Below are positions 5,415 through 52,133 of a stretch of 64,000 nt of DNA, piece after piece. Every line of letters begins with the position of its first letter. The stretch's first letter is position 1. The stretch comes from a virus: positions 24,153-88,152 of the IMG/VR virus record IMGVR_UViG_3300030104_004631; one strand, written 5' to 3'. The notes below the pieces were generated by a model, which did no database searches, had not been told where the DNA came from, and saw only the letters and a program-made list of their open reading frames with translations. The translations under genes were made by a program, and so were the position numbers.

Positions 5415-8400
5415 ATGACTAGAACTGTTCCAGGTACAGGTGCTTCCATCAAACCAATTTTTGATGAGAATTTTGGAGTACGTGCAATACGAGTATTAGA
5501 AGGTGGATCGGGATATGATGCATCAAATCCACCACGATTAACTGTAACTGGTTGTGGAACACCAGATGCGGATGCATTATTGTATCCTATTATCGATTCT
5601 GATTCTGGACAAATTATTCATGTAAGAGTTCTTGAAAGAGGTCGTGGTTATGATCCTCTAAGATTACAGTTTTTTCCAGAACAAGAAACACCAAATGTTA
5701 TAAATTCCTTTGATGTTAATAGAATTTGGCAAGATCATCCAAACTCTTTAACTTCAGGAACCTTTAGTACAGATACAGATAGACTTCGCATACAATCTGA
5801 TAATCATCCTAAACCCACTTGGATCCAAGTAGAAGCAGCACCTAGTGGTGGTCCTTTAGTTGATAGATCATTTGATCAAACATTTATCTATCGTGGTGGT
5901 AAAGATGTACCTCATCCTACTATTAGAACAGAACAAGATAACAAAGTACTTGGCATTCTTGCTAACGGTGGTCTTTTACATACACCAGAATGGGGAACAA
6001 CAGGAAATGCACCAACTAACTTTGCTATTGATTCAGTAAAATATAATTATGTTAAAGGTAATAGTGTTTATGATACTGTAACTGAAGGAAATGTAAGATA
6101 TTATCATTCAAGTGAAACTCTTGATGAATTTAAACTTGAAAATGGTGTATTGGAATGGGGGAAATTCAAACAATTTACGTGGAATGTAAAGGTTGAAACT
6201 GGTAATGTTGCTATAGATGTAACAAACGTTGATGAAACTCTTGGTACTGTTGCTGTAGGTAGAACTATTGATGAAATTGGTGGTAATGCCTCTGGAGAAA
6301 TTTCTAAAGTAGTAAGAAATGGTAGTAATGTTGTAACTAGAATTTATTTGAGACAACTTACTGGGTCTTCTTTCTCTAAGAATGACTTATGTTTAGGTTC
6401 TACAGGATTTTCATTTAAAATTTCTGAGGATCCATATACTTTTAATGCATATTATATTGATTTTGGTACAGATGCAGCAAAATTTGGTACTTTTACACCA
6501 GGAACATTTTATTTTGCTCCAGAAAATATTATAGTAAAACAAAATTATCTGATTAAATTTAATCAATCAGATTCTACTAATAATAATCATCCAATCAGAT
6601 TTAGTACAACTGCTGACGGTACACATAACGATACTCCTGGAACTCTTTACTATACAAGTACTGGAGCATCTTCAGCACCAGCAACAGATTATGAAAGTGA
6701 ATATGCTCCCATATTCATGATGAATTCTGATGAAACAAATAGAATTTATTATTACTGTTTAAATCATCCAAATATGGCTGGTTCTTCTGGTGATGAAGGA
6801 TATATGATTATCAGTACAGATACTACTGCTGAGACATTAACCAATAATTATTATGTTGAAAATTATTATGGATCTGGTGGAACTTTAGATTATAGTCGTC
6901 ACACTGATGGACATTCTAAGATTATTGGTATGTCTTACGATGGATATCCCATCTATGGACCTTATGGATATAATTCTAGTGGTAATGCTGCAAGAGAAGT
7001 ATCTTCACATCGATTAAGAACTACTGCAGAACTTCCTGGTGCAAGACCTGTTGTAAATACGGTTGCTACAACTACCTATACTGTAACAGTTTCCAATGGT
7101 CAATTTTTATTTGATGGTTCTAGACCTAATTTCTTATCTTTAGGTAGAGGAAAGACTTTCATTTTTAATCAAGATAACGCTTCTAATGATGGTGAATTTT
7201 TACTCTTTTCAGAAACTGATGGTGGATGGCATCCTGCTAATAGCATTGGAACCACTTCATATTTGTATGAATTAGGTGTCACATATACATTAGATGGTTC
7301 TACAGTAACTTATGCTGCATATATCGCTGGATTTAACGCAGCAACTCAAAGAAGAATTCAAATTGTTGTTCCAGCAACAGCACCTGATGCTTTATACATT
7401 TTTGGATATCAAACTAGTGGTTTGGGATTAAGAACTGTTCAAAGTGGTTATATTTTAGGTGATTTAGTACAAGATTATATTTACGATTCTAGTGTTGGAA
7501 CTCTTGATGAATTTAATGGAAAGTTTGCGGTAACTCCAGACTATCCAAATGGTACATATGCATATTTTATGACAGAGGATGGCAGTGGAAATCCTGTTTA
7601 TCCATATGTCATTGGACGTAAATTTTACGGTACACCCTTATTTGAGGGAGATGCTGTTCCAGAAATCGTACAAGATTTCCCTGATGGTGCTGCTGGAGAC
7701 GTTGTACTTACAGATAGTGGTGCAGTATCTTATATCAAGATGAATAAGAATGGTGATAATTATTATAATACTACAAAAGCAAGAATTTTAGGCGGTGAAG
7801 GAACTGGTGCTACTGGAACATCTACAGTACAGACAATTACAGGTTTAACTTTATTAAATGCTGGTAGAAGTTATAGTAGTGCTCCTACAGTAGTTTTTGA
7901 AGGAGGAGGAGGTCAGGATGCTCAAGGATCTGCGAAAGTTGATACTACTGGAAAAGTTACTTCAATTAGTATTGCAGATCCTGGAGAATTCTATCAGGAA
8001 CCTCCCTTTGTTCTTTTGACTGGTGGAAATGGTATCGGAGCAAAAGCAGTTGCTACAATTGATCAGGGAGTGATTACAGGCATCACAGTAACTGATCAGG
8101 GTGAGGGTTATACTTCCCCACCAACTGTAATATTTACGAGATTGGTAAATCTCAAACGTAAGACTAGAGCTCGTCAGGCAAATAATGCTAAAAATATTTA
8201 CTTGACTGGTCTTACTAAAGATGTAACTACATCTGCTAGTGAAATTTATGTAAAAAATACTGGTGCTTTTCCTGGATCAGGTGAATTTATTTTAGACTAT
8301 GAAACTATTTCATATACTAGTAAAACCGATGAAAAATTTGCTGGTATTACTAGAGGTGTAAACTTTAATTATGATCAAAGAGTTATTCTTGATGATGGTC

Positions 8401-9539
8401 AAAATGACGACAGTGGTGTTTCTACATACAAATTCAATATTGGTGATCGAGTAATTCGTAGAGTTGAAAGTGCTAGTAATAAAATTGCTAAAGTTTATGA
8501 TTGGAATGCTAGTACTAGAGAACTGTTGTTAACATTTGAAATTGATGAATTAGCATTTATTGATGGTGGTATTCCATCTAGTGAAGAAGCTACAGTTCAA
8601 TTTGATGCTGGCGTTGCTGCTAGTGCAGGATCCACTGACTCTCCACATGTTATTCTTACCGTGGCGGGATCTTCAATTACAACCCTTACAGTCCCAATTT
8701 CAACTCTTCAAGATAAAGCATTCCAAGATATTGCGGAAAACGCTGGAGCAGGAGATGGTATACCTGATCTAGTCAATACAGCAACTGAGTATGAGAACCA
8801 AATTAGTTTGGATGGTGGTATTTACAATTCTCTTTATGGTATTGAAGAAACGCAAGGTGGAACAAATACTACATTATTACAAGTTGGTGATAGCGTTAAA
8901 GATGCTAATGTACCATTTAGATATGCAAATATTTCTATAGCAGGTGGTCTTAGTGAAGGAAGAGAGCACGTTGCTCTTGTTAATATAACATTGGATGCTA
9001 ATGATGGTAATGGTCAAAACTTCAGTGTTAACGAAGTTCTTACTGGAGATATATCTGGTGTCAGAGGAACAGTAGTTTCTTGGGATTCATCAACTAAAGT
9101 TCTTCAAGTAAAAGATGTTATTCCATTCAATACTGGTGATGTTAATGTTGGAGAATCTGGATTGTTATATAAATTTGCTGAAAATAGTACAATTGTTGAT
9201 GTTGTCGTACAAAATGCAGGAACAAACTATTCTGCAACACCGACAATGACATTTGAAGATGTTGGTGATATTAGAGCAACTGGAACGGTCACTATGACAA
9301 TTGCTGGCGACCAAGTTGAAGGAGTTACTATCACAAATGGTGGATATGGTTATGTGCAGAGTGTAGACAACTCATATAATCTACACCCATCACTCACCTT
9401 CACTAATGCTGGTGGAGATACAACTGGTTCTGGTGTTTTTGCATATGCAATTATGGGTGGTGAAAAGGTCTCTGGAAATAACGGAGCACAGTATAGAATT
9501 AAGAGCATTGAGTATTTATCAACCGTTCGTTCCAAATAG
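5415..9539 (+). CDS. Large virion structural protein with cupredoxin-like and YHYH-like domains
   Basis: 1,374 residues. The N-terminal part has GSGY-type repeats ('EGGSGYDASNPPRL'). At about 6560-6830 there is a cupredoxin-like segment: 'NNHPIRFSTTADGTHND' and later 'RIYYYCLNHPNMAG', giving His, Cys-x-x-His and Met in order. It is followed at about 6900-7020 by 'GMSYDGYPIYGPYGY', the signature of YHYH domains. A second, ligand-poor cupredoxin-like segment starts near 7130. The C-terminal half has several GxGYxxxPxVxF beta repeats (near 7860, 8100, 9220) and one GExxxG module (9022-9165). It is probably a tail or baseplate appendage. The ligands and the order of domains are seen in sequence; the function is inferred. 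Confidence 0.7.
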   Translation: MTRTVPGTGASIKPIFDENFGVRAIRVLEGGSGYDASNPPRLTVTGCGTPDADALLYPIIDSDSGQIIHVRVLERGRGYDPLRLQFFPEQETPNVINSFDVNRIWQDHPNSLTSGTFSTDTDRLRIQSDNHPKPTWIQVEAAPSGGPLVDRSFDQTFIYRGGKDVPHPTIRTEQDNKVLGILANGGLLHTPEWGTTGNAPTNFAIDSVKYNYVKGNSVYDTVTEGNVRYYHSSETLDEFKLENGVLEWGKFKQFTWNVKVETGNVAIDVTNVDETLGTVAVGRTIDEIGGNASGEISKVVRNGSNVVTRIYLRQLTGSSFSKNDLCLGSTGFSFKISEDPYTFNAYYIDFGTDAAKFGTFTPGTFYFAPENIIVKQNYLIKFNQSDSTNNNHPIRFSTTADGTHNDTPGTLYYTSTGASSAPATDYESEYAPIFMMNSDETNRIYYYCLNHPNMAGSSGDEGYMIISTDTTAETLTNNYYVENYYGSGGTLDYSRHTDGHSKIIGMSYDGYPIYGPYGYNSSGNAAREVSSHRLRTTAELPGARPVVNTVATTTYTVTVSNGQFLFDGSRPNFLSLGRGKTFIFNQDNASNDGEFLLFSETDGGWHPANSIGTTSYLYELGVTYTLDGSTVTYAAYIAGFNAATQRRIQIVVPATAPDALYIFGYQTSGLGLRTVQSGYILGDLVQDYIYDSSVGTLDEFNGKFAVTPDYPNGTYAYFMTEDGSGNPVYPYVIGRKFYGTPLFEGDAVPEIVQDFPDGAAGDVVLTDSGAVSYIKMNKNGDNYYNTTKARILGGEGTGATGTSTVQTITGLTLLNAGRSYSSAPTVVFEGGGGQDAQGSAKVDTTGKVTSISIADPGEFYQEPPFVLLTGGNGIGAKAVATIDQGVITGITVTDQGEGYTSPPTVIFTRLVNLKRKTRARQANNAKNIYLTGLTKDVTTSASEIYVKNTGAFPGSGEFILDYETISYTSKTDEKFAGITRGVNFNYDQRVILDDGQNDDSGVSTYKFNIGDRVIRRVESASNKIAKVYDWNASTRELLLTFEIDELAFIDGGIPSSEEATVQFDAGVAASAGSTDSPHVILTVAGSSITTLTVPISTLQDKAFQDIAENAGAGDGIPDLVNTATEYENQISLDGGIYNSLYGIEETQGGTNTTLLQVGDSVKDANVPFRYANISIAGGLSEGREHVALVNITLDANDGNGQNFSVNEVLTGDISGVRGTVVSWDSSTKVLQVKDVIPFNTGDVNVGESGLLYKFAENSTIVDVVVQNAGTNYSATPTMTFEDVGDIRATGTVTMTIAGDQVEGVTITNGGYGYVQSVDNSYNLHPSLTFTNAGGDTTGSGVFAYAIMGGEKVSGNNGAQYRIKSIEYLSTVRSK

Positions 9540-9540
9540 A

Positions 9541-9548
9541 CATAAATA
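9541..9548 (+). promoter_or_regulatory. Late promoter box CATAAATA
   Basis: CATAAATA directly follows the upstream stop codon, 26 nt before the gp8 start. It fits the NATAAATA late consensus. Confidence 0.6.
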
Positions 9549-9574
9549 AACAAGAGGACAATAGTACCTAGGAC

Positions 9575-11107
9575 ATGGCAGCCCTATTAACTGATCAATT
9601 TAGAATTTTCTCAGCGAGAAAATTCATCAAAGCACTTGAAGGACCAGATGCAACTCAAAGCGATTCTGCAGCAGGTTCTAATCGAGATAGACTTTATGTT
9701 TTTATTGGAAGATCCCAACCTTGGGACAATGAGAACGCACCCCCACAGGCAGTGGACTCATTTTCGGAGTTTTCTAACTCGTATGATGATATGATCTCTC
9801 TTAAGAGAGTTCTTGCTGCTGATACGGTTCAGGTTGTTCGTAGAATTGACTGGGTTTCTCCTGAAGAAACTACAGGTGGTTTGGGTTTTACTTATGACAT
9901 GTATCGTCATAACTATTCTCCAAGTAAAACTGCTGCTTCTGGTGCTACTAAATTATATGATGCAGACTTTTTTGTTGTGAATTCACAATATCAAGTATAT
10001 AAATGCATTTATAACGGTACCTCACCCTCTGATCCTAATGGTAAACCTTCTACAGTTGAGCCTACTGGCACCAGTACCTCTATTATTACTACTGGCGATG
10101 GATATCGTTGGAAGTATATGTACACCATCCCTGTTGCTTCAGTCCTTAAATTCTTCTCTAATGACTACATGCCAGTCTTTACCAATACTGCGGTAAAGAC
10201 TAATGCTGTTACTGGAGAAATCGATACTGTTGTTATAAACGCTGCTGGTTCTGGATATAATAACGGAACTTATGATAACGTTGCTATTAATGGTGATGGT
10301 ACTGGAGGACGTGTTTCTATCGTTGTTGACGGTGGTAAGATTACTTCTGCCACAGTGACATCTGGTGGTACAGGATACACGTTTGGTCAAATCAGTATCA
10401 ATGCTATCACTGGTATTGGAACTGGAACTAGTGGAGAAGTTGATGTTATTATTCCTCCTCCAGATGGACATGGATACGATTCAAGTATTGAACTTGGTGG
10501 TTTCCGTGTAATGATTAACGCTAAACTCTCATATGATGAGGGTGCAGGTGATTTCCCTATTGATAATGATTATCGTCGTATTGGATTAGTAACAAATCCA
10601 CTCAAGTTTGGTACATCAGAACTTCTTGCAGATTTGACAGTTTCTGCTACAAAAGCAGTTATTTTCTCTCCGACATTTCAAGGAAATTATGTTCCTGATG
10701 AAATTATTACTCAGACTAGAGTTGTTGGAGGTACTAACATTACTGCAAGAGCAAGAGTTATTTCTTGGAATGCAACAACTAAAGTTTTGAAATATTATCA
10801 GAACTCAGTTGATGGTATTTTCCCTGAAGTTACTGGTACACAAAATGAGTTTGATGGATCTAACGTTATAAGTGGAGCAACTTCAGGTGCATCTGGTCAA
10901 CCAGACGTAAACTTCCCTGCTGTTCCAAATTCCTCTTCTAGAACTATTAACAACACTGAATATGATTTGGGTATGAGATTTACTAGTGGATATGCAAAAG
11001 CAGAAATTGAACCAAACAGCGGTCAGGTTGTTTATATAGATAATAGGAGATCAATCAGTCGTGCAAACGACCAAGTAGAAGACATTAAAATCGTAATCGA
11101 GTTCTAA
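9575..11107 (+). CDS. gp8: Baseplate wedge subunit gp8
   Basis: 510 residues against 334 in T4. The N-terminal 'LTDQFRIFSARKFIKAL', 'YVFIGRSQPWDNENAPP' and 'DGYRWKYMYTIPVASVLKFF' segments match cyanophage gp8, a component of the baseplate wedge. The extra length is explained by beta insertions: GSGY repeats at about 10230-10455 and a GExIxG/'VISWNATTKVLK' module at about 10678-10905. The gene is followed after 5 nt by the giant baseplate protein gene, so the two are likely transcribed together from the late box at 9541. Identity rests on N-terminal motifs and gene order. Confidence 0.8.
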   Translation: MAALLTDQFRIFSARKFIKALEGPDATQSDSAAGSNRDRLYVFIGRSQPWDNENAPPQAVDSFSEFSNSYDDMISLKRVLAADTVQVVRRIDWVSPEETTGGLGFTYDMYRHNYSPSKTAASGATKLYDADFFVVNSQYQVYKCIYNGTSPSDPNGKPSTVEPTGTSTSIITTGDGYRWKYMYTIPVASVLKFFSNDYMPVFTNTAVKTNAVTGEIDTVVINAAGSGYNNGTYDNVAINGDGTGGRVSIVVDGGKITSATVTSGGTGYTFGQISINAITGIGTGTSGEVDVIIPPPDGHGYDSSIELGGFRVMINAKLSYDEGAGDFPIDNDYRRIGLVTNPLKFGTSELLADLTVSATKAVIFSPTFQGNYVPDEIITQTRVVGGTNITARARVISWNATTKVLKYYQNSVDGIFPEVTGTQNEFDGSNVISGATSGASGQPDVNFPAVPNSSSRTINNTEYDLGMRFTSGYAKAEIEPNSGQVVYIDNRRSISRANDQVEDIKIVIEF

Positions 11108-11112
11108 CCCGA

Positions 11113-14100
11113 ATGGCACAAAATACTAACCTAAACGTAACACCGTATTACGACGACTTCGATAAAGATAAGAATTTTTATCGAGTGCTGTTCCGTCCTG
11201 GATTTCCTATTCAGGCAAGAGAACTCAGTACAATGCAGAGTGTTCTGCAGAACCAAGTAGAATCTGTTGGAACGCACCTATTCAAAGATGGTGCAATGGT
11301 AATTCCAGGTCAAGTTGGTTATGACTTGGATGTTCAGGCAGTTCTTGTTCAAGAATCTTTCTTGGGTAGTGATGTTGAAACTTATAGAACTCAAATAACT
11401 GGAACTATTGTTGAGGGTCTAACTACAGGCGTTAAGGCAAAGGTTTTATATAGTATTTCTGCCTCGGAATCAGAAAAAGGTTATATCACATTATATGTTA
11501 AGTATATAGATTCTGGTGATACTACTTCTGCCACTGGTCTGAAAACATTCCAGATTAATGAACAGTTAATTACAGATAAGGAAATTACTTTTGGATCAAC
11601 TCTAATTGAGATCGGTACTCCTTTTGCTCAGTTGCTTCCTGTTGCTGCTACTGCTGTAGGTTCTACTGCATATATTAGTGAAGGTGTTTATTATATTAGA
11701 GGTCATTTTGTAAATGTCCCAACTAACTATCTAATTCTTGATCAGTATAGTAGCAATCCTTCTTACAGAGTAGGTCTTGAGATTTTAGAATCTATTGTCA
11801 CTCCTGAAGATGATGAATCTCTAAATGATAATGCTGCAGGAACTTCAAATTATTCTGCACCAGGTGCTCATAGATTTAAAATTCAAACACAGTTTGTAAA
11901 ACGATTAATTACTGATGAAGCAGATAAAGACTTCATTGAACTTTTAAGAATTAACAATAGTAGGGTAGAAAATTTTGTAGAGAGAACTGAATATAGTGAG
12001 TTAGAAAAATCATTGGCTCGTAGAACTTTTGAAGAGTCTGGTGACTATGTAATTGATACATTTAACGTTAATATGCGAGAGCATCTTAATGATGGATTTA
12101 ATAATGGTGTTTATAATAAAGGTCAAAACTCAGATCAAGGTAATCTCGCTGATGATAATAAATTAGCAATTGAGGTTTCTCCTGGTAAAGCATATATTAG
12201 AGGATATAGAACTAACTTTATTAGTCCACGATATGTTGATGTAGATAAACCAAGAGATTTTGAAACTCGTCAAAATGGTATTATTAACTTCAATCTTGGT
12301 AATTTTGTAAAGGTTTATGATGTTCATGGTTGGCCAGAAATATCTGGAGATGGTGTTAGTGATGCATATCAAACTCTAAATCTTTATGATGATTGGGCAG
12401 CAAATGCAACATCTTCTGTAAAGTCAGGTGCTAATAGAATTGGTAGATGTAGGGTAGTTCAGTTACAAAAATCTAGTAGTGCTTTAGCTGCAACATCACC
12501 ATTTGGAATCGAACCAACTATTGTTGGTGGTGTTTACGATCTCTGGTTCTTTGATGTTCAGATGTTTACCGTTCTGAATATCACGAATGCAGTAACTTAT
12601 ACTGCAGGTACTAAAATTGTTGGTAAAACTTCTGGGGCGACAGGTTATGTTGCAGATACTGGAAACAATACACATTACATCTATCTTGAGCATGTGAGTG
12701 GTGAATTTACCAATGGTGAAATTCTGTCTGTTAATAATAGAGATTCAGGAACCTTAGAGGCAGCACATACTTATCAATTAAGTGATGTTAGATCTTCTTT
12801 CGGTCTTGATGGTTCCAGTGCTGTTAGATTTGGTGCAAACTGGATTCTTAATGATTCTCGTCCTATTGAATCTTCTACAGTAAATATCGATGAGACAACT
12901 GGTGATGTTTTAACTGTTGATACTATTGGTGCTGCTGTTGGTGCCAGAACTGCAGGAACATATAATATTGCTAGTACTGGTGTATCCACTGATGGATCTG
13001 GAACTGGTGCTACCTTTACTATTGTTGTTGATGGTACTGGTGCTGCTACTATTACTGTCACTGGCGGTGGTAGTGGATATGTTATTAATGAAACTATTAC
13101 TGTTGCTGATGCTCAACTAGGAAGTGGTGGTGCTGCAGCGTTACAATTTGATGTTGCTAGTGTTGGTCGTGAAGATATTACTGGTTTCCGTACAAGATTT
13201 GAAAAGGATTTGAGACCAGGTGATGTAGTCACCCCAACACTTTCTGATTTGGAAGGTACAAATACTCTTCGTGTTAAGAGAGTTGATCCTACTGCTATTG
13301 CAACAACTTCTGGAAATAGAAAGTCTACAGTATTGGCAGGAGATGCTATATTTGATTACACTGATCAAACTACTAGACTTGACAATACTTTAAAGGTTGG
13401 TACAGTTGCTGCTGGTCAGTATAGTGAATTAGTTAGATTGCGTCCGTTCATTTTCCAGAAAGATTATCAGAACGGAGAACTTTCTTTTGACCTACCAGAA
13501 GATACGATGAAGTCTTTGAGCGATGAATCGTTCTTTGTCTTTAGAAACTTTGCATCCAAGACGGTAACTTCAGGTTCTATTACATTTACTCTTCCTGAGA
13601 CTGAAGCATTTGGTGCATTATCTGGTGATAATTATATTCTTACAATTATTGATAAAGGAACTTCTTCAGTGTTTACTGATGGAGAGAACGTAGATATTGA
13701 TGCACAGGTAGATGCTGGTGTATTATCAACATCTTTTGGTTCTGATAATCAGTCTTTCTCAATCAGTGGTCTTACTAATATTGCTACAGTAACTCTTACA
13801 GCATTAGTTTCTAAGAATACTGTTTCTAAAAAGATTAAGACTGCTGCTAAGATGAAGGCATTGAAAGTCATTAAAACTGATATAGATGTTGATACTCAAC
13901 CAACAGGTCTTACTTATAGTACTCTTTATGGAACTAGAGTTGAAGATTTAGATGTTTCGTTTGGTGTTAATGACGTTTATAACGTTCATGCAATATATGA
14001 ATCATATGATGATAATGATGCATCTTCACCATATGTTGTTCTTACTGAATCAGTATTCTTTGCTGCAAGCACATTAATTGTTGGTAAAACTTCTGGTGCT

Positions 14101-34026: not shown

Positions 34027-35157
34027 ATGAAAAAACTAGCAATTGTTGGAGCTGGTAATGCTGGATGTATATCAGCATTACATTTTAAACAACATGAACC
34101 AGATTTAGAAATTGATTTATATCATGACTCTGATCATCATCCTATTGAAAGAGTAGGACAAGGGACGACTATCCCTGTAGCAAAATTATTATCTCAGTCT
34201 TTAGACTGTACTTGGTATGATAATCCTATTGAAGCCACGTTGAAGGCAGGAATTTTATATAGGAATTGGGGAAAAATACATGATTGCCCTACCGAGCGTA
34301 GGCATGATGCATTCTTTCATGATTTCTACACTATGGATCAAGTAAGTATGCATTACACACCAAAAAAATTAAGTGATGCTGTTTTATCTAGTAAGAAATT
34401 TAATGTTATAGAAAAAGAAATAAACGATCCCGAAGCAGAAATTGATTCTGATTTTATTATTGATTGTAGAGGTAAAAAATCTAGGGACAAAGAGAATCAA
34501 ACCTATTTGTATAATCCCATCGATTCTGTTTTACTTGGAAGTGTTACAGATGATTGTAATGTTAATATTCTTAACTACACTGATAAGATCCAAATGCAAT
34601 TTACTGAGGCATGTGCAACGCCTAACGGTTGGACTTTTATCGTTCCCACTCAGAATAAAATAAGCCTTGGTTATCTTTATAATTCAACTATAACTACTAA
34701 AGAAGAAGCAACAAGAGACTTTAAAGATCGTTTTGGTGTAGAAGAAGTAGAACATGCAATGAAGTTTGATAACTACTGTTCTCTTAAACCATTTGTCGGT
34801 GAACGTACATTATTGAATGGTAATCAATGTGCATTTATTGAACCTTTAGAAGCTACTGCAACAGGGTTATATCTTTGGATTGCAAGGGTTGGTTATGATC
34901 GCTTTATTAATAAGAGACCTACTGATGAGTGTATAGAACTTATTCATAGAGAAGTTGATTCAATTGCCAATTTTGTTCTCTGGCATTATAAAACAGGTTC
35001 ACCATTTGATAGTCGATTCTGGGATTACTGTACTACTATTCCTTTTACACCAATTCAAGAACCTATTGGTGATGAAAGGTATGGGCAATGGGGTAGAAAA
35101 TCTTTTGATAATTGGAGATATAACACTGGTGGAGAGATAATAGAAAATGCATCCTAA
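34027..35157 (+). CDS. prnA: FAD-dependent tryptophan-halogenase-like protein
   Basis: 376 residues, shorter than bacterial tryptophan halogenases (~500-540). It has an N-terminal Rossmann FAD motif 'IVGAGNAGC' (residues 6-14), a 'GQGTTIPV' segment equivalent to the halogenase GxGxxTxP region, and 'LKAGILYRNW' whose Lys73 aligns by eye with the catalytic Lys of PrnA. In place of WxWxIP it has 'GWTFIVP' at 201-207. 'FVGERTLLNGNQCAFIEPLEATA' resembles the second FAD motif. The substrate is unknown. Such genes occur in several cyanophages. It is preceded by an extended -10-like TGCTATAAT inside purM (33938-33946). Confidence 0.8.
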   Translation: MKKLAIVGAGNAGCISALHFKQHEPDLEIDLYHDSDHHPIERVGQGTTIPVAKLLSQSLDCTWYDNPIEATLKAGILYRNWGKIHDCPTERRHDAFFHDFYTMDQVSMHYTPKKLSDAVLSSKKFNVIEKEINDPEAEIDSDFIIDCRGKKSRDKENQTYLYNPIDSVLLGSVTDDCNVNILNYTDKIQMQFTEACATPNGWTFIVPTQNKISLGYLYNSTITTKEEATRDFKDRFGVEEVEHAMKFDNYCSLKPFVGERTLLNGNQCAFIEPLEATATGLYLWIARVGYDRFINKRPTDECIELIHREVDSIANFVLWHYKTGSPFDSRFWDYCTTIPFTPIQEPIGDERYGQWGRKSFDNWRYNTGGEIIENAS

Positions 35158-49698: not shown

Positions 49699-50244
49699 AT
49701 GAATTATGGAAAATTTTACAAGGAAGTATCCTTCAACACTCAGTCAATTAACATAGTACGAAAAGCAATATCACAAGATTTAAAATTTACTAAAGGAGAA
49801 CTACACAGTAGTCACAGATCAACAAGAAGTTCTGAGGTAGCGTGGTTGAGAGATATGGATCTCTTGTCTATGCTTATGCGTATGTCTAAACAGATTAATA
49901 GATCTGCAAATTGGAACGTAAAAATTGATGGTATGGAACCTGTACAATTTGGTATCTATGGAGAAGGAGATTTCTATGATTGGCATGTTGATCAACACCC
50001 AAAACCTATTGGGGGAATGGTAAGGAAGATTAGTATGTCACTTTTTCTTAATGATGATTTTGAAGGAGGGGAGTTTGATTTGGAGATATATAGACCAGAT
50101 GCAGATCCAAGGTATAAAACTTTTAAGTTAAAACCATGGTCTGCTATTTTTTTCCAAGGTGATCAATGGCATAGGGTTCGCCCTATCACCTCTGGAGTTA
50201 GAAAATCTATTGTAGCATGGTTTTATGGACCTCCTTATTCGTAA
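49699..50244 (+). CDS. 2-oxoglutarate/Fe(II)-dependent oxygenase (PKHD type)
   Basis: 181 residues from the ATG at 49699, 2 nt after the uvsY stop; an upstream in-frame ATG inside uvsY (49669) is less likely. The double-stranded beta-helix iron ligands are H96-x-D98 ('FYDWHVDQHP') and H158 ('FQGDQWHRVRPI'); Arg168 ('SGVRKSIVAWF') would bind 2-oxoglutarate. Prolyl-hydroxylase-like proteins of this kind are common in cyanophages; the substrate is unknown. It overlaps uvsW by 20 nt, linking it to recombination genes. Confidence 0.9.
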   Translation: MNYGKFYKEVSFNTQSINIVRKAISQDLKFTKGELHSSHRSTRSSEVAWLRDMDLLSMLMRMSKQINRSANWNVKIDGMEPVQFGIYGEGDFYDWHVDQHPKPIGGMVRKISMSLFLNDDFEGGEFDLEIYRPDADPRYKTFKLKPWSAIFFQGDQWHRVRPITSGVRKSIVAWFYGPPYS

Positions 50245-51697
50245 GAAGAATGAAGTTTATTTAAAAGTTGAAGCGGAGCCTCATCTCCATAAAGAGGCAG
50301 CAGAATTTTTTACCTTTGAAATCCCCTCTGCAAAGTACATGCAAAGAACGAGGAGATACAAAGGTTGGGATGGTAAAGTACGGTTATACTCACCTGCTAC
50401 TGGAGAGATCTATTGCGGTTTAGTAGATTATCTAACTGACTGGGCAAAGGAAAGGGGATATCAGTATCAGTTCGAGGAATCTCAATACTTTGGACATCCC
50501 AAGGATCAGAACGATCTAATAACTCCTCAGTCTGTAGTTGGATTTGTTCAAGCACTGGGTCTGCCTTCGGGATTAAAGGTTCGGGATTACCAATATTCAG
50601 CAATATACGAGTCCCTACTATACAACAGACGGCTCCTATTGTCCCCAACTGCCAGCGGGAAATCCTTAATGATTTATTCATTGGTTCGGTTTCATGTAAA
50701 TGTTAAGAGGAATGTACTTATTATAGTACCAACTACTTCTCTTGTCGAACAAATGTATAAAGATTTTACAGAGTATGGTTGGAATACTGAGTACCATTGT
50801 CATAAAATCTATGCTGGAGAAGAAAAATATACAGACCATGATGTAGTTATATCAACTTGGCAGTCCTTATATAAGGAACCAAGAAAGTTTTTTGATAGGT
50901 TTGATGTTGTTATAGGTGACGAAGCACATTTGTTTAAAGCAAAGTCATTGACTAGATTGATGTCTAAGTTGCATAGTTGTAAATATCGTATTGGATTTAC
51001 TGGTACATTAGATGGGTCAGACACTAATCAATTAGTATTGGAGGGTGTATTTGGTAGATGTTCAAAGGTTACTAAGACATCTGATCTAATGAAAAAAGGA
51101 CATGTTTCAAAACTTAAAGTAAAAATTCTTTTATTAAAGCATGAAGAAAAAATCTTTGAGGGGTACCAAGATGAAATGGATTACCTTTGTGAGCATGAAC
51201 AACGTAATAAATTTATCCGCAATCTAGCGTGTGACCTTAAGGGAAACACGTTGGTACTATTCAACTACGTGGAAAAGCACGGTCTGCCTTTGTATGAAAT
51301 GATAAATACTTATACTGATAAACCAGTACATTTAGTTTATGGAGGAGTTGATGTTGATGACCGAGAAGAAATACGGAGGTTGGTTGAAAATGAAACTGAT
51401 CAAATTATTGTCGCCAGTTATGGCACTTTCAGTACTGGGATTAACATTAAGCGGTTGCACAACCTCGTCTTCGCCTCCCCCAGTAAGTCCAGAGTCCGTA
51501 ACCTCCAGTCTATCGGGAGGGTACTTCGACAGTATAGGGGAAAAGAAGTAGCAACATTATATGATATTGCAGATGACATCTCTACAGATCGTGGAAATAA
51601 TTACACACTAAATCATTTAATGGAGAGAGTCAAAATTTATAACCAAGAGAATTTTAATTATGAACTCATAGATGTAAAACTAAAAACTTATGATTAA
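50225..51697 (+). CDS. uvsW: DNA/RNA helicase UvsW
   Basis: 490 residues (T4: 503). The SF2 helicase unwinds R-loops and branched DNA and shifts replication to the recombination mode. The N-terminal domain has 'RRYKGWDGKVRLY'. Motif I is 'LSPTASGKS' (Lys146), motif II GDEAH (Asp232), motif III 'GFTGTL', and motifs V-VI 'FSTGINIKRLHNLVFASPSK' followed by 'QSIGRVLRQYRG'. The segment coding motifs V-VI also carries an out-of-frame lipoprotein frame (51390-51551). Confidence 0.95.
   Translation: MDLLIRKKNEVYLKVEAEPHLHKEAAEFFTFEIPSAKYMQRTRRYKGWDGKVRLYSPATGEIYCGLVDYLTDWAKERGYQYQFEESQYFGHPKDQNDLITPQSVVGFVQALGLPSGLKVRDYQYSAIYESLLYNRRLLLSPTASGKSLMIYSLVRFHVNVKRNVLIIVPTTSLVEQMYKDFTEYGWNTEYHCHKIYAGEEKYTDHDVVISTWQSLYKEPRKFFDRFDVVIGDEAHLFKAKSLTRLMSKLHSCKYRIGFTGTLDGSDTNQLVLEGVFGRCSKVTKTSDLMKKGHVSKLKVKILLLKHEEKIFEGYQDEMDYLCEHEQRNKFIRNLACDLKGNTLVLFNYVEKHGLPLYEMINTYTDKPVHLVYGGVDVDDREEIRRLVENETDQIIVASYGTFSTGINIKRLHNLVFASPSKSRVRNLQSIGRVLRQYRGKEVATLYDIADDISTDRGNNYTLNHLMERVKIYNQENFNYELIDVKLKTYD
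51390..51551 (+). CDS. Nested lipoprotein frame within uvsW, candidate Rz1-like o-spanin
   Basis: 53 codons in the +1 frame relative to uvsW. The ATG at 51390 has GGAGG at 51375-51379, 10 nt upstream. The product has a textbook lipoprotein signal: 'MKLIKLLSPVMALSVLGLTL' then SGC (lipobox L-S-G-C, Cys23). The mature part is ~31 residues, Ser/Pro rich ('CTTSSSPPPVSPESVTSSLS') and ends at its own TAG. Small Pro-rich outer-membrane lipoproteins nested in another gene are the hallmark of Rz1 spanins. A normal host gene for an i-spanin partner was not identified nearby. A chance frame cannot be excluded. Confidence 0.6.
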   Translation: MKLIKLLSPVMALSVLGLTLSGCTTSSSPPPVSPESVTSSLSGGYFDSIGEKK

Positions 51698-52133
51698 CTA
51701 CGCCAAACACGAAGAAGAATTTTACGGAGTTTTTAAACTTGTCAGTGGAGAAGAAGTGCTAGGTAAAGCAGTTCTTACAGAAGAGAGTGGTGAATCCCTT
51801 GTTTTTATTCAAAATCCTGTTTGTACATTAGTAGTTAATAAAGAAATTGAAGATGGTCGCCAAGTTCGTGGGGTGGGTTTTGCTAAGTGGATGCAATTTT
51901 CTGATGAAGATTTCTTTATTATAAGAGAAAAAGATATTTTATCAGTTTCATCAATGAGTAAAGAAGTTTCGTTTATGTATGAAGCGTTTGTACAAAGTGA
52001 AAATAAAGATAAACCAAGAAAAAATAATTCAAAAATTGATCCAGAACCCCAGATGGGTTACCTAGGAAAAATTAATGAAGCAAGAAAAATGTTTGAAAAA
52101 ATTTATAAATTTAATCCTATTGAACCAAGATAG
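51690..52133 (+). CDS. Hypothetical, possibly Sm-like fold protein
   Basis: 147 residues, overlapping the uvsW stop by 8 nt. The N-terminal ~100 residues are beta-rich ('YGVFKLVSGEEVLGKAVLTE', 'DFFIIREKDILSVSSMSKEV') in the manner of Sm/LSm-like small barrels known from cyanophage-related sequences; the C-terminus is basic and helical. It sits between uvsW and the late sigma gene. RNA binding would follow if the fold is right. T4 gp33 is not excluded by position but does not look similar. Confidence 0.55.
   Translation: MINYAKHEEEFYGVFKLVSGEEVLGKAVLTEESGESLVFIQNPVCTLVVNKEIEDGRQVRGVGFAKWMQFSDEDFFIIREKDILSVSSMSKEVSFMYEAFVQSENKDKPRKNNSKIDPEPQMGYLGKINEARKMFEKIYKFNPIEPR

Follow-up and report, generated by a model that had tools for sequence, protein, structure and literature searches.

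A probable lipoprotein gene read out of frame within uvsW of marine T4-like phages, with a possible o-spanin-like role

The uvsW locus of the stretch of DNA analysed here (64,000 nucleotides, referred to as the window) raised the question whether a helicase gene also encodes, in a second frame, a small lipoprotein, and whether such a product might serve at lysis as the outer-membrane part of a spanin. The window comes from a T4-like cyanophage near Prochlorococcus phage P-SSM7 (98.8% protein identity in UvsW; matched DNA stretches mostly 91–96% identical), and uvsW has a 2OG-Fe(II) oxygenase gene, T4-GC 139 and gp55 as neighbours. The original prediction had placed an ORF with its own GGAGG, ATG, LSGC lipobox and a 31-residue mature part out of frame in uvsW, and translation confirmed all of these elements (MKLIKLLSPVMALSVLGLTLSGCTTSSSPPPVSPESVTSSLSGGYFDSIGEKK, followed by a stop; coordinates are collected in Table 1). 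Divided at the lipid Cys, the product reads MKLIKLLSPVMALSVLGLTLSGC and TTSSSPPPVSPESVTSSLSGGYFDSIGEKK, the final letter of the first part being this Cys. The predicted type II signal consists of a K-containing n-region, a hydrophobic h-region and LSGC; the mature part is rich in Ser and Pro (4 Pro), contains no Cys beyond the lipid Cys and, as predicted, has Thr at position +2. The Cys codon is built from the main-frame codons CGG (Arg) and TTG (Leu) and the C of a His codon, and the stretch of uvsW overlain by the ORF presumably comprises helicase motifs V–VI. P-SSM7 carries the same nested ORF with two changes, its start lying at P-SSM7 position 121310. In the window the +1 frame is open from an ATG further upstream (position 51339; 70 aa in the ORF list); this start was set aside because in most relatives a stop lies between the two ATGs, which makes the ATG at 51390 the likely start of the nested ORF.

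Table 1. Positions of the nested ORF, its predicted signals and the surrounding genes in the window
Feature	Position	Strand	Basis or remark
Candidate T4-type late promoter inside uvsW, GATAAATA	51301–51308	+	core ATAAATA at 51302
Nested lipoprotein ORF, 53 aa, +1 frame of uvsW	51390–51551	+	translation; recurrence in relatives
Lipobox LSGC, residues 20–23	51447–51458	+	Cys is residue 23, codon 51456–51458
GGAGG, candidate Shine-Dalgarno (SD) of nested ORF	51375–51379	+	10 nt ahead of ATG
In-frame upstream extension, ATG at 51339, 51351 and 51357	51339–51389	+	broken by stops in most relatives
High-GC3 island over nested ORF core, uvsW codons 396–431	51413–51520	+	GC3 in positives
uvsW helicase gene, host of nested ORF	50225–51697	+	phrog_16 DNA helicase 4e-126; ResIII, Helicase_C, UvsW_N
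T4-GC 139 gene ('methylamine utilization'), next downstream, overlaps uvsW end	51690–52133	+	

Relatives were collected by two routes. A peptide search of viral contigs yielded 168 stretches, of which 80 were kept; as these had been selected for the peptide, they were excluded from frequency counts and included in composition and type counts (106 positives). For the unbiased set, uvsW loci were gathered by the uvsW protein only, with four seeds; from 398 sequences, comprising the window and 397 loci, 283 unique ones with a complete 3' end remained, and 236 of these were independent of the peptide search. At the protein level, the search pattern ENEDDQII overlaps the start of the nested ORF, and the patterns YEMINTYT and YEQINNTK overlap the late-promoter codons. 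Sequences were called positive by a rule of our own, i.e. a lipobox pattern, a hydropathy of at least 1.0, a start codon and at least 15 mature residues; an SD-like site was no part of this rule. A lipoprotein ORF was present at the same place in 63 of the 236 unique sequences and absent in 173, a proportion that is not a population frequency, as some seeds were themselves positive loci. The positives belonged to three groups, the seeds of which were ~55–61% identical to the window in UvsW.

If the ORF had opened by chance over a conserved helicase motif, half a signal peptide would come free, as the +1 frame of IIVASYGTFSTGI encodes a hydrophobic stretch in most uvsW sequences, and 0.7% of synonymous resamplings of the window gene alone did yield such an ORF. 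For this reason the window sequence alone is only suggestive as evidence against chance, and the claim of the original prediction that such a product is hard to get by chance gains its strength from the relatives: synonymous resampling with each gene's own codon usage gave 0.67 expected positives against 63 observed (n = 236). Elsewhere in uvsW, the largest positive count in any frame or on either strand was 4, and a strict lipobox scan of the negative loci in six frames detected 0 such ORFs in 938,021 bases. In two clades the nested ORF was retained by 25/27 and 12/12 members, whereas a neutral simulation on the tree, for which synonymous change outside the region served as calibration, kept 1.8 and 2.6 on average, and 0/300 runs reached the observed value in each clade. 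With the region's own codon usage as a hard control, 0/300 and 1/300 runs reached the observed retention, and 3/300 and 18/300 runs did so when this control was run at half rate. The open frame, the start and the signal were thus kept beyond neutral expectation. GGAG or GAGG was found in the homologous stretch of 43/63 positives and 30/173 negatives, a contrast inflated by relatedness. Taken together, synonymous resampling, the other-frame controls and the neutral simulations lead to the rejection of chance as the origin of the nested ORF, and only a very small residual weight is left to it. Suppression of synonymous change over the overlap, which the original prediction had named as a test, was tried as main proof and was not decisive within clades: synonymous identity was raised in cross-clade comparisons and only modestly within clades, where conservation was unremarkable (ranks 36, 433, 163, 102, 230 and 230 of 454 windows).

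Composition and haplotypes were then compared over the core of the ORF. GC3 in the island was up to 0.70 in positives versus ~0.3 both in negatives and over the greater part of the remaining gene. CGG TTG was the commonest codon pair at the Cys in positives (43/63; the type A Cys is mostly made in this way) and did not appear in the list of the 40 most frequent codon triplets of negatives. Two lipobox types were distinguished among the 106 positives, type A (...LTLSGC TTSSSPVPPSPE...; 92/106) and type B (...LTTSC or FTISC followed by SQAPV..., i.e. I/T-S-C; 14/106), the type B Cys sitting four residues later than the type A Cys. Identity between groups, inside versus outside the island, was 0.66 versus 0.47 for A with A, 0.68 versus 0.40 for B with B and 0.39 versus 0.44 for negatives with negatives. 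Such a pattern could also be produced by a constraint at the level of DNA or RNA, be it a tract of recombination or conversion, an island of codon usage or a regulatory element, with the ORF as a by-product: the sharing of the island across clades (A with A) resembles short-tract horizontal transfer, the local GC3 is high, and negatives appear to exchange tracts too. In L019 compared with L199 and L200, loci of different groups without the ORF, synonymous identity over motifs V–VI was 0.90 versus 0.46–0.47 outside, which we read as short-tract exchange also among phages lacking the nested ORF. Negatives moreover had the +1 frame open more often than expected (108/173 versus 35.6; uvsW codons 396–430, equivalent to window positions 51413–51517); either part of this excess has another cause, or these frames are remnants of the ORF. 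Against such a by-product stand a retention that exceeds neutral expectation even when the simulation takes its codon usage from the region itself, the enrichment of SD-like sites, which lay outside the criteria for positives, and the two haplotypes, synonymously near unrelated, each of which encodes a start, an h-region and a lipobox. Within the L122 group, synonymous identity between A and B was 0.42 inside the island and 0.64 outside, both encoding lipoproteins; because A and B differ at most free positions and yet both give a complete lipoprotein, this argues for selection acting on the protein, perhaps with exchange of short tracts between phages. A DNA- or RNA-level constraint is accordingly regarded as unlikely, and the nested gene is very probably real and, in some of the marine T4-like phages, under selection.

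On a uvsW tree of the 236 tips built without the region, 20 state changes of the nested ORF were counted, so that gain, loss or exchange of the trait is frequent. The expectation that frame, ATG, SD-like site and Cys are conserved was borne out, beyond chance, in most near relatives and failed in others. In four loci with uvsW 92–95% identical to the window (L113, L112, L103 and L114) the ORF is kept and Tyr replaces the Cys; as the lipobox Cys was lost at this distance while the frame stayed, some lineages can dispense with the gene. The ORF was not present in S-RIM2, S-SSM5 and S-CAM22 (isolates ~80% identical), nor in MH319748, P-TIM68, P-SSM2, P-SSM4, AG-345-D19 and MH319721 when these were read in the nested frame. 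Among cultured phages, tblastn with two versions of the peptide returned two P-SSM7 records only and then none. A DNA search with the island found the LSGC lipobox in four more marine single-cell virus records (AG-345-F15, AG-345-O18, AG-341-P01 and AG-345-P14); in AG-345-F15 the n-region of the frame has no ATG.

Expression of the nested gene was assessed from the candidate promoter inside uvsW. The sequence NATAAATA is described as the late promoter of cyanomyoviruses, with ATAAATA as its core, in PMC2984593. ATAAATA was found at one uvsW codon column in 232/236 sequences, with or without the nested ORF, and only four other copies occurred across all 236 uvsW genes. At this column Ile is encoded by ATA in 232/233 sequences (29% elsewhere) and Asn by AAT in 235/236 (68% elsewhere). 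The core lies 88 nt ahead of the nested ATG, and the next ORF downstream is the nested gene; the ORFs listed downstream of this motif begin at 37, 49, 55 and 88 nt, all in the nested frame. The window contains 17 copies of the motif on the + strand and 1 on the − strand, and for 16 of the 17 an ORF of at least 50 aa begins 25–98 nt downstream. In P-SSM7, 17/34 + strand motifs lie 26–88 nt ahead of a listed gene start, the nested ORF included, in a table for which the gene start positions were hand-picked. The number of + strand motifs in P-SSM7 (34) is not above the first-order Markov expectation (41.6), and only their strand bias (34 on + versus 2 on −) and their placing are informative. The uvsW site thus has a core of the described type, in coding-strand orientation and at a conserved position ahead of a start, and it shares core, strand and typical spacing to starts with the cyanomyovirus late promoters as given in PMC2984593. 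It differs in lying deep inside a gene from the promoters accepted in PMC3037559, which according to its stated selection rule were intergenic or at most 10 bp from an ORF edge, and a site inside uvsW would have been excluded by that rule. Because the promoter occurs in sequences that lack the nested ORF as well as in those that have it, it probably also serves the gene at 51690–52133. Late expression of the nested gene is considered likely on the strength of this site.

P-SSM7 and other cyanomyoviruses stand in the table of spanin-less phages in PMC6139136, in which 20 Prochlorococcus or Synechococcus phages are among 91 without an identifiable spanin; that paper suggests that spanins might be unnecessary in these phages, and states that lysis genes are unclustered in T4-like genomes and that inspection of large genomes did not extend to all frames. 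The observation of the original prediction that no lysis gene was otherwise obvious can be upheld for lipobox lipoproteins, as a strict lipobox scan of the window found only the nested ORF. Six-frame lipobox scans found no other convincing lipoprotein in P-SSM7, and no replacement lipoprotein was found in the flanks of negatives (177 loci). A second, ordinary lipoprotein ORF of 66–67 aa (MKKLIGSIRKEILILSVVPLLAGC...) was seen ~4 kb downstream of uvsW in 3 of the 106 positive loci (L084, L143 and L082). In S-SSM5, which is without the nested ORF, PstS and a weak 38-aa ORF were the only finds and neither is a clear o-spanin, and for this reason an outer-membrane lipoprotein does not appear to be required by all cyanophages. 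Two adjacent P-SSM7 proteins of 893 and 919 aa (positions 6330–11770) match PHROG 'endolysin' families and are candidate lysis enzymes; their genes fall outside the part homologous to the window. P-SSM7 also encodes, at 105473–105757 (L404:7474–7758), a hemolysin family protein (PHROG 1193, E = 2.7e-11), which we take to be XhlA-like; in the matching stretch of the window this ORF is not among the listed ORFs, and an unrelated 376-aa ORF (34027–35157) lies there.

Comparison with known spanins gave a mixed picture. According to the descriptions in PMC6139136, the nested product resembles lambda Rz1 and other two-component o-spanins in being a small predicted lipoprotein of outer-membrane type with Pro in its mature part, nested out of frame and probably late, and it resembles the T4 spanins PseT.2/PseT.3 in belonging to a T4-like phage and being unlinked to other lysis genes. 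By the same descriptions, Rz1 is nested in the gene of its own i-spanin partner, whereas the window ORF is nested in a DNA helicase gene with no partner nearby and is neither embedded in, overlapping with nor closely separated from a partner gene; the mature part of Rz1 has 40 residues and 10 Pro versus 31 residues and 4 Pro here, with no similarity established; and in the T4 o-spanin a structured part and two additional Cys are conserved, whereas the window peptide has no Cys after the lipid one. No convincing i-spanin partner was found among the TM-containing ORFs of P-SSM7. An out-of-frame P-SSM7 ORF (92518–92796) that matched a PHROG Rz-like spanin family (E = 0.007) was rejected, there being no counterpart among the ORFs listed at the homologous place in the window. 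The nested ORF had no Pfam match, and against the PHROG 'Rz-like spanin' families it reached E values of 0.076–0.23 only, which are not significant in what is a weak test, spanins being highly diverse. No earlier report of the nested gene was found in the open-licence literature on spanins, on cyanophage or P-SSM7 lysis and on overlapping genes. Although a type II signal with a lipobox Cys is predicted, the ORF was not filed as a spanin member, because no i-spanin was found, no family match was significant, S-SSM5 lacks both this ORF and any other clear o-spanin, and the uvsW neighbours are not partners. The o-spanin candidacy put forward originally is therefore retained in a weaker form: an o-spanin-like role is the best single guess, plausible and unproven, because P-SSM7 is listed as spanin-less, no other convincing lipoprotein was found in it, the timing would be late and the mature part is small and contains Pro.

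A real nested lipoprotein gene with another job, i.e. a single-component lysis-release lipoprotein or an outer-membrane superinfection blocker, is also well conceivable. Colicin release (lysis) lipoproteins, the model for the former, and the phage lipoproteins T5 Llp and N15 Cor, which block superinfection at the outer membrane, are very small and act on the envelope. The small size of the nested product and the lack of a partner in our searches fit such a job, phages such as S-SSM5 do without the ORF, and its patchy gain and loss are easier to reconcile with an accessory role than with an indispensable step of lysis. On the other hand, PHROGs and Pfam, through which the comparison was made, yielded no match to a family of this kind, the colicin release and Llp/Cor lipoproteins are not nested in a helicase gene, unlike the window ORF, and a superinfection blocker would fit poorly with an ORF that follows a late promoter, since genes for superinfection proteins tend to belong to the early or middle class.

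The reading preferred here, to which we assign a probability of roughly 0.45, is a late-transcribed nested lipoprotein gene with an o-spanin-like role in lysis and a partner elsewhere. Late transcription would start at the promoter inside uvsW, the core of which is conserved, and the nested ORF would be the first on the resulting transcript. Ribosomes would start at the ATG at 51390 after the SD-like GGAGG, and the product is predicted to be exported, cut before Cys23 and lipidated, giving the 31-residue lipoprotein. Lipoproteins with Thr at +2 go to the outer membrane in E. coli. The most likely job of the lipoprotein would be that of the outer-membrane half of a spanin-like system at lysis, and the gene for its inner-membrane partner would have to lie in another part of the genome.

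We tentatively propose, as a possibility rather than an expectation, that an outer-membrane lipoprotein acting in lysis lies hidden in the +1 frame of the uvsW helicase core of marine T4-like phages now counted as spanin-less. Its late promoter would be the one inside uvsW, which nearly every uvsW gene examined has, and the lipoprotein gene would have arisen or spread repeatedly, with two lipobox solutions. A second protein under selection can be encoded over a conserved helicase motif, and such a nested gene and its promoter are missed by gene callers and by promoter scans confined to intergenic sequence. A hidden, probably late lipoprotein gene in P-SSM7 makes testable the question how many marine cyanophages breach the outer membrane and, if the proposal is true, a conserved helicase motif would be a recurrent cradle for a lipoprotein gene.
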